From Bacteroidales bacterium (GTDB taxonomy: Bacteria > Bacteroidota > Bacteroidia > Bacteroidales > VadinHA17): 64,000 bases of DNA. Shown here piece after piece: positions 6,967 to 12,289 of this stretch (position 1 is the first letter of the stretch; every line of letters begins with the position of its first letter). The position numbers were made by a program, and so were the translations under genes. Below the pieces are notes generated by a model. It did not search any database. It was not told the DNA's origin and worked only from the letters and a program-made list of their open reading frames with translations. The stretch lies in contig PLLO01000005.1 of NCBI GenBank assembly GCA_003142255.1, positions 1 through 64,000 on the forward strand, in the 5' to 3' direction.

Positions 6967-9900
6967 TTAGTATCTCTTATCCGCTTTTATCGGCAGCTTT
7001 GCCAGCTTTTCGACCTCAACTGACGGATATCCGAACTCTTCAACTACTTTTCCCATGATCAGGTACGTCCCGGCGCCTTTAAATGGATAATACTTAAGCG
7101 ATTGCGGAAAATGCGTCGTATCGAAAAAACTCCCTTCCGGATCAATAAAGCATCCGAAGTTCATCCATTCCTTCTTTATTGTCTTTATGTACTTGATTGT
7201 CACGAGGTGGCCGACCAGCCTGATCTTTTTCCCAACGTGTTTAATAAGATCTTTGGCAGCAACTTCGCCGCGGAACGATGTTTCGAGCATATCGAACCAT
7301 GTGAGCGATACAGGGAAGCTCAGCAGTTCGATCTCGTCGTAGGCATCATCGAGCCTGCTGTATTCAAGGTCGGGAAGGTTGAAATTGCGGGGAGGAGAGG
7401 AGAAAAGCTGCTTCATGGGTTCAGGCTTGCTCTTGTTCATCATCATATGGGCTTCCCAGAGAAGTGTCGCTTTTTTCTTCCCGGTGAACCTGAAAGCACC
7501 GGCCCTGATAAGCAGCATCATCTGTTCCAGTCCGGGATTCAGCCTGGCAATGAAATCGCTCATCCCGTCGAACTCTCCCTCTGAATTGCGATTCTCTTCA
7601 ATTGCCATCGCCAGGTTGCTCTCGAGGCTCATGATGTGTATAAACCCGAGGTATATATCTGATCCATAAATTGTTGTCTTGTAATTGCTTTTGTTGACGC
7701 AGGGCAGCTGTATAGCGGCCCCGTATCTCTTTGCCTCGTGCACGTATACCCATGTCCTGTAAAAACCACCGAAATTATTGATCACGGCCACCATGAACTC
7801 GAGCGGGTAATGAGCTTTCAGGTAGAGGCTCTGGAAGCTCTCAACAGCATAGGATGCCGAGTGGGCCTTGGAGAATGAGTATCCGGCAAACGACTCAATC
7901 TGGCGCCACACCTCTTTGGTGACTTCCTCACTATATCCCTTTTCGCGGCAGTTTGAGAAGAACTTATCGACTATCCTCTGCATCTCCTGTTTTGACCTGT
8001 ACTTGCCGCTCATTGCGCGCCGCAGCGTATCGGCATCTGCCAGGTCGAGGCCTGCAAAGTGATGGCATACCTTCAGAACATCCTCCTGGTAGACCATTAC
8101 GCCGAAGGTCTCTTCGAGCTGCTCCTTCATCACAGGATGCAGGTATTTGAATTTATCAGGGTTATGGAACCGGTAAATATACTCGCGCATCATCCCGGAA
8201 CGTGCAACTCCCGGCCTGATTATCGAGCTGGCAGCAACAAGAGTTGTATAATCATCGCACTTCAGCTTCTGCAGGAGCCCGCGCATCGAAGGGCTTTCGA
8301 CATAGAAGCATCCCTTTGTCTCGCCGGTTTTCAGATACTCCTTGATCTTAGGGTCGCTCTTGAACTTCTGAATTGCATGCACATCGACATCGACTGAGCG
8401 GTTCCGGAGTATTATCTCAGCGCTCTCGCGTATATGCCCTATACCGCGCTGGCTCAGGATGTCGAGCTTCTCAAAGCCGATTTCCTCGGCAGTATACATA
8501 TCCCACTGTGTGGTGGGAAACCCCTTTGGAGGCATATCCAGTGCGGTGAATGATGCCATTGGCTCTTCAGATATAAGGATTCCGCCGGCATGGATACTGC
8601 GCATGTTCGGGAAATCGGCAATCTTCAGTCCTGTTGAGAAGATTATGTCGGTGATCTCGTTGCTGTTTCGTTCCGCTGAAGGATTATCTATAAGTGAATC
8701 AATCTCCTCTTTTGGCAGACCATGGACCTTTCCGAGTTCCCTCACGATCGACTTGCCCCTGAAGGTGCTTATTGTGCCCAGGAGGGCGGTATGATTATAC
8801 CCGTATCTTTTGAAGATGTAATCGATAACCTCATCTCTCTCTTTCCATGAATAGTCTATGTCGAAATCGGGGGGACTGCTCCGTTTAGGGTTTATGAATC
8901 TCTCAAAGTAAAGGTTCAGGTCGATAGGGTCAACATTGGTGATTTTCAGGCAATAAGCAACTATGGAATTTGCGCCGCTTCCCCTTCCAACGTGGTAGAA
9001 GCCTCTTGCCATCGAGTACCTTATAATATCCCATGTTATCAGAAAATAGGCAGAGAAGCCGAGCCTGTCGATTATTTCCAGTTCATGGCTTATCCTTCTT
9101 CTTGCCTCGCCGTTATGTTTGCCATATCTGTACTCCATACCGTCCCAGGCAAGCTTCTCGAGCAGCAGCTTGTCGTCGTACCTGCTTGCCGAGAATATCT
9201 TTTTGTTTTTCTGGCTCTCGCGGTCAAATGCCAGGCTGCAGTCATCCAGCAGATCGCAGGTATTCCTTATGATCTCAGGGTATCCGGAAAACACTCTTTT
9301 AATGTCGCCGGGTGAGAGAAAGAACTCATCCTCACCGGCACACTGTGATGGTTTCAGGTGGCTGAGAAGAATGTTGTTGTCGACTGCCCTGAGGCTCCTG
9401 TGAATGAATATATCGTCTTTACCGGCAAATGTGACCGGCTGCATGATAACCATTTTGTTCCTCAGCGCAGACGCAACCGGCAGCAGCCTGTTGATATACG
9501 CGATCCTTATGCCAGTGCGCTCATTGTCGTACATCCGGCGTCGGGGAGGATTTGTGAACGGGTAGATGACATATGAATCTGAAAAACGGGGGGCAGGGAA
9601 GGGAACCTCTGTTTTTTCGAAATTACATTTTGAAAGGAATTCGTTCAGCTCCCTCAATCCCTTGTTATTGCGGGCAATGCCGGTGTAGAGCAGGTCGTTG
9701 CCGATCCTGAATTCAATTCCCGCTACCGGCCTTATGTTGTTTTTAGTGCACTCACCTGCAAATTCAGGTATTGCCGTTGAATTATTTATATCTGTCAGGA
9801 CTATAGTGCCGGCTTGTGCAGCAGATGCTTTCTGCACAAGCTGTTCCACTGACATGGTGCCGTAGCGGAGACTGTAATATGAATGACAATTCAGGTACAT
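6967..9900 (-). CDS. dnaE2: DNA polymerase III alpha-type, error-prone DnaE2-like
   Basis: C-family DNA polymerase of 977 residues, clearly shorter than a replicative DnaE (about 1,150 or more). Catalytic aspartates are present: PDFDID at 344-349 (Asp345 and Asp347) and EKLD with Asp480. The N-terminal PHP domain is recognisable, but the usual HxHS reads NCHS and TDH reads TDI, so its metal site is probably lost, as in DnaE2 proteins. A helix-hairpin-helix region and an OB fold (near residue 905, RLVGHLVTIKYIKT) follow. It is 76 bp downstream of a Y-family polymerase and the pair is divergent from a LexA-like repressor, which points to translesion synthesis. It ends 22 bp from the convergent relA stop. 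Confidence 0.85.
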   Translation of the reverse strand: MYLNCHSYYSLRYGTMSVEQLVQKASAAQAGTIVLTDINNSTAIPEFAGECTKNNIRPVAGIEFRIGNDLLYTGIARNNKGLRELNEFLSKCNFEKTEVPFPAPRFSDSYVIYPFTNPPRRRMYDNERTGIRIAYINRLLPVASALRNKMVIMQPVTFAGKDDIFIHRSLRAVDNNILLSHLKPSQCAGEDEFFLSPGDIKRVFSGYPEIIRNTCDLLDDCSLAFDRESQKNKKIFSASRYDDKLLLEKLAWDGMEYRYGKHNGEARRRISHELEIIDRLGFSAYFLITWDIIRYSMARGFYHVGRGSGANSIVAYCLKITNVDPIDLNLYFERFINPKRSSPPDFDIDYSWKERDEVIDYIFKRYGYNHTALLGTISTFRGKSIVRELGKVHGLPKEEIDSLIDNPSAERNSNEITDIIFSTGLKIADFPNMRSIHAGGILISEEPMASFTALDMPPKGFPTTQWDMYTAEEIGFEKLDILSQRGIGHIRESAEIILRNRSVDVDVHAIQKFKSDPKIKEYLKTGETKGCFYVESPSMRGLLQKLKCDDYTTLVAASSIIRPGVARSGMMREYIYRFHNPDKFKYLHPVMKEQLEETFGVMVYQEDVLKVCHHFAGLDLADADTLRRAMSGKYRSKQEMQRIVDKFFSNCREKGYSEEVTKEVWRQIESFAGYSFSKAHSASYAVESFQSLYLKAHYPLEFMVAVINNFGGFYRTWVYVHEAKRYGAAIQLPCVNKSNYKTTIYGSDIYLGFIHIMSLESNLAMAIEENRNSEGEFDGMSDFIARLNPGLEQMMLLIRAGAFRFTGKKKATLLWEAHMMMNKSKPEPMKQLFSSPPRNFNLPDLEYSRLDDAYDEIELLSFPVSLTWFDMLETSFRGEVAAKDLIKHVGKKIRLVGHLVTIKYIKTIKKEWMNFGCFIDPEGSFFDTTHFPQSLKYYPFKGAGTYLIMGKVVEEFGYPSVEVEKLAKLPIKADKRY

Positions 9901-9976: not shown

Positions 9977-11248
9977 CTAATGTCCAAACCCGTACATCAT
10001 ATACCCCCGGAGTCGTTCTTCCATCATTTCCTGCTCTTTACGGGCATTTTCGAGCTGTTTACGGGCTTTTTCTTCTCTTTCGCTGCTGGTCATCACCCCG
10101 GCAGCCCTTCGCACCGCATCGCGTCCGAAACGCTTCCTGAGCTTATCCATGGCCATATAGAGGCTCACCTTCTCGGGAGTATCGTCGAACATGTCGAGCT
10201 GCTGTACTCCGCGAACCATGTGGCTGAACCTTACGCCTATGAGCCTGATGAGCATGCGCCGCTGGTATAGTCTGCCGAAGAGCTCCTTGGTGATATCCGA
10301 GAGAACATGGTCGAATGCTGTATAGGATACCCGCTTCTGCAGGGTGTGAGTGTCGAAATTCGAATACCTTATTTTAACTGTTACGCACGATGTGAGCTTC
10401 TCCTGCTTTCGAAGCTCGTAGGCGATCTTCTCCACCATGCTTACGAGCAGCTGGTTAAGCCTGGTCATATCGGTGGTATCTTTTTCGAAGGTATGCTCTG
10501 TGCTTATCGATTTTTGTTCCGAGTAGCTTATGACGGGAGTTGAATCTATCCCGTTGGCTCTTTTCCACACTTCAATGCCGTTTTTGCCCATAAGCTTTTC
10601 GAGCATCTCGGCAGGTATATTCCTTAATGTATAAATTGTTGCTATGCCCATTGAGCGGAGCACATGATAAGTTTTTTGCCCGATCATCGGTATCTTGCTT
10701 ATCGAAAGCGGGTCGAGGAAGGGGAGGACTATCTCTTTTCTTACCTCTATCTCGCCGTTTGGCTTCGCCTCTCCGGTAGCTATTTTAGAGACTGTCTTGT
10801 TTACTGAAAGTCCGATCGATATCGGGAGGCCGGTCTCTTTTATTATCTGCTGGCGCAATTCATGCGACCACTGATAACAGCCGTAGAAGCGATCCATCCC
10901 GGTGATGTCTACATAATGCTCGTCGATCGATGATTTCTCATAGAGCGGCGATTTTTCAGCAATTATCTCAGTAACAAGGTTTGAGTAATTGCTGTATGCC
11001 TCCATGTCGCCGCGTATAACTATGGCCTCGGGACACATATTCCTGGCCATTTTCATGGGCATTGCAGAGTTTACCCCGTATTTTCTTGCCTCGTAGCTGC
11101 AGCTCGATACCACACCACGGTCCGACATGCCGCCTATTATGACAGGCTTGCCTGTAAGCCTGCTGTTGCGGAGCCTTTCCACCGATACGAAGAATGTGTC
11201 GAGATCGAGGTGCAGTATTGAGCGTTCTATGTTGCCGGCTAGAAACAT
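9977..11248 (-). CDS. dinB: Y-family DNA polymerase (DinB / ImuB-like position)
   Basis: Translesion DNA polymerase of 423 residues. Catalytic acids are intact: Asp15 in HLDLDTFF and Asp109-Glu110 in SSIDE. A helix-hairpin-helix region (IPMIGQKTYHVLRSMG, about 198-213) and a little-finger domain follow. The motif QLDMF at 350-354 looks like a beta-clamp binding peptide. The C-terminal 40 residues are a charged, probably coiled, tail. Classical ImuB proteins lack catalytic residues; this one keeps them, so it should be an active polymerase although it sits in an ImuB-like gene order. The start at ATG 11248 is the first reasonable one. Confidence 0.9.
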   Translation of the reverse strand: MFLAGNIERSILHLDLDTFFVSVERLRNSRLTGKPVIIGGMSDRGVVSSCSYEARKYGVNSAMPMKMARNMCPEAIVIRGDMEAYSNYSNLVTEIIAEKSPLYEKSSIDEHYVDITGMDRFYGCYQWSHELRQQIIKETGLPISIGLSVNKTVSKIATGEAKPNGEIEVRKEIVLPFLDPLSISKIPMIGQKTYHVLRSMGIATIYTLRNIPAEMLEKLMGKNGIEVWKRANGIDSTPVISYSEQKSISTEHTFEKDTTDMTRLNQLLVSMVEKIAYELRKQEKLTSCVTVKIRYSNFDTHTLQKRVSYTAFDHVLSDITKELFGRLYQRRMLIRLIGVRFSHMVRGVQQLDMFDDTPEKVSLYMAMDKLRKRFGRDAVRRAAGVMTSSEREEKARKQLENARKEQEMMEERLRGYMMYGFGH

Positions 11249-11269: not shown

Positions 11270-11344
11270 CTTTGTGCCCTTTGTGGTTAAAGGCTTTCTT
11301 TTTAACCACGAAGGACACAAAGTTCATACTAAGGGACACAAAGG
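11270..11344. repeat. Inverted repeat of the CACGAAGGACACAAAG type
   Basis: Two 22-bp arms (11270-11291 and 11301-11322) are near-perfect reverse complements, each carrying a CTTTGTG...TGTGGTTAAA-like core, followed by a third partial copy at 11331-11344 (AGGGACACAAAGG). This is an interspersed-repeat style sequence, here lying in the leader region of the polymerase operon. Confidence 0.6.
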
Positions 11345-11383: not shown

Positions 11384-11414
11384 TTGCATATATTAATAGT
11401 ATGCTTTATTTTTG
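11384..11414 (+). promoter_or_regulatory. Promoter of the LexA-like repressor gene
   Basis: TTG at 11384-11386, 20-nt spacer, TATTTTTG at 11407-11414: a full match to the Bacteroidota -33/-7 consensus. Transcription would start near 11421, inside the first palindrome listed at 11413-11452. Confidence 0.65.
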
Positions 11415-11452
11415 ATTAGAATTTAATCAATATTATGATTACAATATAATCA
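11413..11452. promoter_or_regulatory. Two 17-bp operator palindromes for the HTH-S24 repressor
   Basis: TGATTA-gaatt-TAATCA (11413-11429) and TGATTA-caata-TAATCA (11436-11452) have identical 6-bp half sites and a 5-bp spacer, with centres 23 bp apart. The first overlaps the -7 box and predicted start site of the repressor gene; the second lies 10-26 bp before its ATG. This is what an autoregulated dimeric HTH repressor would bind. Confidence 0.7.
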
Positions 11453-11461
11453 ATTTACATT

Positions 11462-12289
11462 ATGTACTTCGCTTCCAACATAAAATTTTTAAGAAAAAGA
11501 AGGGGCAGGACACAGGATGATGTTGCTGTGGCCCTTAACCTCAAGCGTTCAACCCTCAGCGGTTATGAGAACGGCGTGGCCCAGCCCGGGATTGATGTCC
11601 TGGTCTCGTTTTCGCGATACTTCAACCTGTCGATCGACACAATGCTGAAGATCAGCATCCCTGACCTTTCCGAGAGCCAGCTTGGCGAACTCGAAAGAGG
11701 ATATGATGCCTATATCAAAGGGAGCAACCTCAGGGTACTCGCAACAACTGTCAACTCCGACAACCTCGAAAACATAGAGCTTGTTCCGGAAAAGGCAAAG
11801 GCAGGTTATGCTACCGGATATGCCGACCCTGAATTCATCGGTGAGCTGCCCAGGTTCCGGCTCCCGTTCCTGTCGGAAAAAAGAAAGTACAGGACCTTCC
11901 AGCTAAAAGGCGACTCTATGATTCCGATCCCCGAAGGCTCATGGGTCACTGGCGAGTTTGTCCAGGACTGGCGTGAGATAATAAGCGGAAAAGCCTATGT
12001 GATCTTCACAATAAATGACGGAATTGTCTTTAAGGTAGTGGAGAACAACCTCTCAAACGACGGCAAGCTGATTCTCTATTCGCTGAACCCCATTTATGAG
12101 CCTTATGAAGTTCATATCAGCGAGGTAAAGGAAATTTGGAAATTCGTGCACTTCATCAGCAGCGAGCTTCCCGACCCGGTTCTTCCCGAAAAACAGCTTA
12201 TCCAGGCAGTTGCAGCAATGAAGAACGACCTCGAAAGAATCAAGGCAAAAATAGGAAGTGATATTTCCGATATAAGGGAATCAAACTGA
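11462..12289 (+). CDS. LexA-like HTH-S24 repressor (self-cleaving type)
   Basis: A 275-residue regulator: XRE-type HTH (about 5-60, with RTQDDVAVALNLKRSTLSGYENG) joined to an S24/LexA peptidase domain (about 110-230). The nucleophile is Ser152 in KGDSM and the general base Lys191 in GIVFKVV. An Ala114-Gly115 bond in KAKAGYATGY is in the right place for autocleavage. A coiled-coil-like C-terminal tail follows. It diverges from the two polymerase genes and has a matched promoter and operator pair in front. The likely role is an SOS-type switch cleaved upon RecA activation, by analogy with LexA and lambda-type repressors; cleavage is not shown here. Confidence 0.85.
   Translation: MYFASNIKFLRKRRGRTQDDVAVALNLKRSTLSGYENGVAQPGIDVLVSFSRYFNLSIDTMLKISIPDLSESQLGELERGYDAYIKGSNLRVLATTVNSDNLENIELVPEKAKAGYATGYADPEFIGELPRFRLPFLSEKRKYRTFQLKGDSMIPIPEGSWVTGEFVQDWREIISGKAYVIFTINDGIVFKVVENNLSNDGKLILYSLNPIYEPYEVHISEVKEIWKFVHFISSELPDPVLPEKQLIQAVAAMKNDLERIKAKIGSDISDIRESN

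Follow-up and report, generated by a model that had tools for sequence, protein, structure and literature searches.

A candidate tandem operator at the promoter of a LexA-like repressor in uncultured Bacteroidales

An earlier note on this DNA had described two 17-bp palindromes with identical arms, centred 23 bp apart, and both are present at 11413–11429 and 11436–11452 of the window (the whole stretch analysed, 64,000 nucleotides). Because the pair lies on the promoter of a LexA-like repressor gene and recurs at the same spot across many Bacteroidales families, it very probably switches an SOS-like response to DNA damage on and off, as judged from sequence comparison. Many uncultured families of the order probably possess their own group of SOS repressors, with a deeply conserved two-site operator that is fused to the -7 element and controls only the repressor itself and a divergent dinB-dnaE mutagenesis operon. 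A module of repressor, operator and polymerases is thus placed in many uncultured families of an order that a published survey of complete genomes set outside the Bacteroidetes SOS system (PMC8565304). Since the operator is given to the base, damage-induced mutagenesis in these families becomes directly testable.

Repressor, promoter and paired palindromes

The features of the locus are as follows.

6967–9900, minus strand: second, short DnaE-type polymerase alpha subunit of 977 aa, on the dinB strand and downstream of that gene
9977–11248, minus strand: DinB-type Y-family translesion polymerase (IMS and IMS_C; DNA polymerase IV models), divergent from the repressor
11270–11322, no strand: repeat-derived insert with inverted AACCACnAAGGACACAAAG arms, separating the promoter-operator module from dinB
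11384–11386, plus strand: TTG, the -33-type element of the repressor promoter, from its sequence and its conservation in the family
11407–11414, plus strand: -7 element TATTTTTG, fitting the Bacteroides consensus TAnnTTTG, its last 2 bp common to O1
11413–11429, no strand: candidate operator O1, TGATTAGAATTTAATCA, with GAATT between the arms and no mismatch to TGATTA-N5-TAATCA
11436–11452, no strand: candidate operator O2, TGATTACAATATAATCA, with the same arms around CAATA, the spacer also being conserved
11462–12289, plus strand: LexA-like repressor of 275 aa, with HTH_3 at residues 7–59 and Peptidase_S24 at residues 112–221
11801–11806, plus strand: Ala114-Gly115 codons, the predicted self-cleavage bond, invariant in 41 orthologues
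11915–11917, plus strand: Ser152 codon, the predicted nucleophile in a GDSM motif, invariant in 41 orthologues
12032–12034, plus strand: Lys191 codon, the predicted general base, invariant in 41 orthologues

The gene behind the palindromes is a LexA-like HTH-S24 gene, as the earlier note had read it. Its N-terminal domain matches HTH_3 (PF01381, E 4.3e-14) and its C-terminal part matches Peptidase_S24 (PF00717). The winged-helix domain LexA_DNA_bind (PF01726) has no match in the protein, and no canonical LexA DNA-binding domain was found in the window's genome or in 40 relatives, with 10 of 14 control genomes positive. The residues of the expected scissile bond and catalytic dyad (A114, G115, S152 and K191) are unchanged across the 41 aligned orthologues. 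A fold search likens the C-terminal part to the C-terminal domains of LexA and lambda CI, and the N-terminal part to SinR and DdrO; a C-terminal helix is also predicted. The AlphaFold model (mean pLDDT 62.5) is confident for the HTH domain only, and therefore serves as weak support. The repressor is single-copy in its genome. Its nearest named relatives are mostly from uncultured Bacteroidales, the best being isolate fen_958 at 98% identity.

The promoter of Bacteroides has the consensus TAnnTTTG at -7 and TTTG near -33 (PMC7366714). The proposed promoter of the form TTG-N20-TATTTTTG ahead of the palindromes is found as described, with TTG at 11384–11386 and the -7 box at 11407–11414. The order of promoter and palindrome is also correct, but the two are not adjacent, as had been supposed: O1 shares the TG at 11413–11414 with the -7 box. 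At 83 of 84 usable loci of the family, and at 35 of 39 from other families, the box TANNTTTG likewise terminates with the TG that opens O1; TTG stands 19–20 bp before this box in 80 of the 84. The rest of the intergenic DNA varies, but promoter and operator stay together as a single fused unit, and the attachment of the operator to the TANNTTTG box is seen across the order.

O1 and O2 are separated by a gap of 6 bp. They are the only exact copies of TGATTA-N5-TAATCA in the whole 3.73-Mb genome, which has no third, and shuffled windows contain a mean of 0.00 against the two of the real window. At two mismatches the pattern shows no enrichment in the window (10 found, 6.8 expected). The signal therefore consists of the exact tandem pair and not of scattered weak sites.

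Conservation, divergent polymerases and extent of the regulon

Of the 117 family genomes, 104 have an orthologue of the repressor; beyond the family, orthologues at about 50–67% identity are present in many families of the order. The earlier note would have given up the operator if the palindromes were lost at orthologous loci. They are retained as a tandem pair at 85 of 90 family loci and, among loci of the order's other families, at 46 of 66 (at most 3 mismatches over the 24 specified bases), the pair being missing or more diverged than this in the remaining 20. Also conserved, throughout the family and widely in the order, are the 23 bp from centre to centre, the two bases common to O1 and the -7 box, and the divergent position of dinB; the pair itself is kept down to about 55% protein identity of the repressor. 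All further near-matches within 400 bp of O1 lie at the 23-bp offset (113/113). In family loci with the pair, the arms hardly vary: their information content is 1.93 and 1.84 bits per position, whereas the region from -45 to -28 has 0.66.

The spacer of O2 (11442–11446) is nearly fixed in the family as CAATA or TAATA (1.82 bits) and is almost as conserved as the O2 arms. The spacer of O1 is looser.

The two polymerase genes said to diverge from the repressor are confirmed at 9977–11248 and 6967–9900, both on the minus strand. A separate DnaE is encoded elsewhere in the genome by a 1207-aa open frame, which makes the copy in the window accessory. A dinB-like gene diverges from the repressor in each of the 82 family loci whose upstream sequence is long enough, a count that leaves unscored eight of the 90 where the contig edge is too near; in the other families it does so in 54 of 66. 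Within the family, 92–824 bp of intergenic DNA lie between the two genes. A search of the minus strand for a shared dinB promoter (TTG-N18-22-TANNTTTG) gave no consistent position. In L097, L116, L123, L129, L137, L145 and L149, where the intergenic region is long, the operators remain on the dinB side and the inserted gene lies between them and the repressor. This position fits a switch that serves both sides.

The intergenic region is an insertion hotspot, with inserts that differ by genome and lie on either strand (examples are L008, L035, L049, L097, L116, L123, L129, L137, L142, L145 and L149). The inserts include open frames of the 23S_rRNA_IVP/four-helix-bundle type (PF05635 confirmed in several, one below the cut-off), a PDDEXK_3 gene and an IS200-like transposase. 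Some, placed immediately behind the promoter and operator, may come under the same control. At the place of the window's insert, beside the dinB start, other genomes of the family have short repeats, tandem or dispersed, that are unrelated to it.

With at most 3 mismatches allowed, 17 of 18 genomes have the tandem pair exactly once, and the reversed control pattern is found in none. Upstream of recA, no site within one mismatch was found in 30 loci, so a full SOS regulon is unsupported. With recA lacking a site, the pair present once per genome and a site near parE unconserved, the regulon looks minimal: the repressor and, presumably, dinB-dnaE. The search of genome and relatives for the motif at repair genes, suggested earlier, thus succeeded at the repressor/dinB locus and failed for a wider repair regulon, with none at recA.

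Sites with one mismatch number 27 in the window's genome, against 5 for the reversed control pattern, and not all of them are explained. Half of the 22 examined are inside genes. One lies 250 bp upstream of parE, and parCE is among the reported targets of non-canonical LexA (PMC8565304). This site is missing from the 29 other loci examined and is hence taken as chance. Another, TGATTACAAAATAATCC, precedes a dnaA-like gene by about 279 bp (L307, position 1575; G000:C11:98474-98490).

Proposed switch and competing explanations

There is a strong likelihood that the pair is the operator of the adjacent non-canonical LexA-class repressor, taking the explanation as a whole. For this clade, binding and its cooperativity, self-cleavage, induction by damage and the control of dinB are predictions. 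In undamaged cells, two repressor dimers would occupy O1 and O2, probably cooperatively; the 17-bp sites and their 6-bp gap recall the lambda operators, which suggests such binding by analogy. A dimer on O1, which extends over part of the -7 box and the start region of the repressor promoter, would block that promoter, with O2 just downstream strengthening the block. The bound pair would probably also silence the divergent dinB-dnaE operon. Upon DNA damage, the RecA filament would induce the repressor to cut itself at the Ala114-Gly115 bond, with Ser152 and Lys191 as the catalytic dyad. The dimers would then leave, and the repressor and two damage-tolerance polymerases would be made. Because no dinB promoter is consistently recognised, repression of dinB through O1 and O2 is putative, above all in the window, where the repeat insert lies between.

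This last step is the one questioned by an unlikely but not negligible alternative, by which the repressor controls only itself through O1 and O2, and dinB-dnaE is read from an independent, unregulated promoter. The sites are indeed phased to the repressor promoter and not to any recognisable dinB promoter, and repeats or whole genes part dinB from the operators in many genomes. However, the divergent pairing is without exception in the testable family loci, and in the shortest arrangements (71–130 bp, 30 loci) any dinB promoter must overlap or abut the operators. Several of the loci with large inserts keep the operators beside dinB and have the repressor displaced. The homologous locus of E. 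anophelis, moreover, has a divergent polymerase that is damage-induced (PMC8565304).

Two further explanations dispense with an SOS role or with DNA binding. By one, the gene is a captured prophage or mobile-element repressor, with an operator for phage function and the polymerases as chance neighbours. The CI-like HTH_3 domain agrees with this, as do 17-bp sites with a 6-bp gap, close to lambdoid operator spacing, but the distribution of the gene is vertical, with one copy per genome in most of the family and widely in the order. Its neighbourhood with dinB is fixed, and no phage genes adjoin it, the neighbours being a RelA/SpoT gene, the polymerases and a TypA-like GTPase gene; a phage origin is accordingly very improbable. 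Still less credence is due to the idea that the inverted repeats are hairpins in the leader of the repressor transcript and not protein-binding DNA. Both palindromes do lie at or after the expected transcription start, within the leader. Against this, the arms are held in sequence and not just in pairing, with near-invariant bases, the -7 box already contains the beginning of the first arm, and the spacing of 23 bp does not vary. Such dyads are also bound as DNA by closely related regulators (PMC8565304).

Relation to known repressors

The non-canonical LexA proteins of Bacteroidetes are HTH_3 and S24 repressors that bind CTAA-N5-TTAG or GGA-N5-TCC, and both groups are reported absent from Bacteroidales in a survey of complete genomes (Sanchez-Osuna et al. 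2021, PMC8565304). The same study describes close relatives in the class that mitomycin induces and that recognise a dyad-N5-dyad site in front of their own genes; it accepts diverged motifs, TTAC-N5-GTAA for example, and its regulons range from large ones that include recA to small ones. The present locus is best explained as a further, diverged group of this class, outside both published subgroups since it lacks the motif of either. The operator sequence and the host order are new, not the kind of system, in a comparison with the main text of PMC8565304. The earlier note had proposed an SOS-type operator unlike the LexA box of E. coli, which is CTGT-N8-ACAG (PMC8565304). That difference stands, and applies also to the two published Bacteroidetes motifs. 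The repressor is no longer unplaced, its class being non-canonical LexA, and the SOS role is a prediction from sequence.

In a tree of 122 related repressors, built without the two validated reference proteins and with the GGA group not identified among its rows, TGATTA-N5-TAATCA is confined to one clade, where 50 of 74 rows have it; the 48 rows elsewhere have none. CTAA-N5-TTAG sites belong to a separate clade of this tree, which includes rows from the window's order. A third, distant clade holds L211, with TTACAAATTGTAA beside a divergent dinB-like gene. The recognition-helix region reads KRSTLSGYEN in TGATTA-type repressors and NRAMIGSYEE in CTAA-type relatives of the same order. The arms-N5-arms geometry is common to all groups compared, whereas the half-site differs. 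TGATTA thus becomes a third well-supported half-site for the repressor class, in which specificity has drifted and the N5 geometry is fixed.

The repressor resembles the CTAA-N5-TTAG group in its HTH_3 and S24 domains, its length (about 260–275 aa), the dyad-N5-dyad site at its own promoter and its error-prone polymerase targets, which are putative here; the predicted C-terminal helix likewise has a counterpart in the extra C-terminal helix described for that group (PMC8565304). In contrast, it has TGATTA-N5-TAATCA sites, usually in tandem at a fixed 23 bp, falls in a separate clade and has no recA site. E. anophelis has TTAC-AAATT-GTAA in the repressor promoter, and both the repressor and the divergent error-prone polymerase gene are induced by mitomycin C (PMC8565304). 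The promoter palindrome and divergent polymerase gene are shared with the present locus, and L211 has both the site and the arrangement of E. anophelis. The half-site and the distant clade set E. anophelis apart, as does the single palindrome reported for it. The minimal SOS systems of HdiR and UmuDAb, as presented in PMC8565304, are similar in that an S24 regulator acts mainly on error-prone polymerases (putatively so here) and not on the whole repair set. They differ in their unrelated lineage and operator, and in the dinB-dnaE pair found here.

A final likeness concerns phage repressors. Lambda CI has an HTH_3-type domain and an S24 self-cleavage domain, and its 17-bp OR and OL operators lie 6–7 bp apart and overlap promoters. 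Domains, site length, the 6-bp gap and promoter overlap are all matched at the present locus. Unlike lambda, the locus is chromosomal without phage context and has nearly identical half-sites, 6-bp arms around N5, and two operators instead of three.

Some relatives from the same order, at about 36–46% identity, carry CTAA-N5-TTAG sites. The CTAA group is therefore not absent from the order, contrary to the published survey (PMC8565304). These sites were seen upstream of distant paralogues in L170, L171, L175, L179 and L180. Some genomes with a CTAA-type paralogue, such as G180 and G330, also hold a TGATTA-type repressor.
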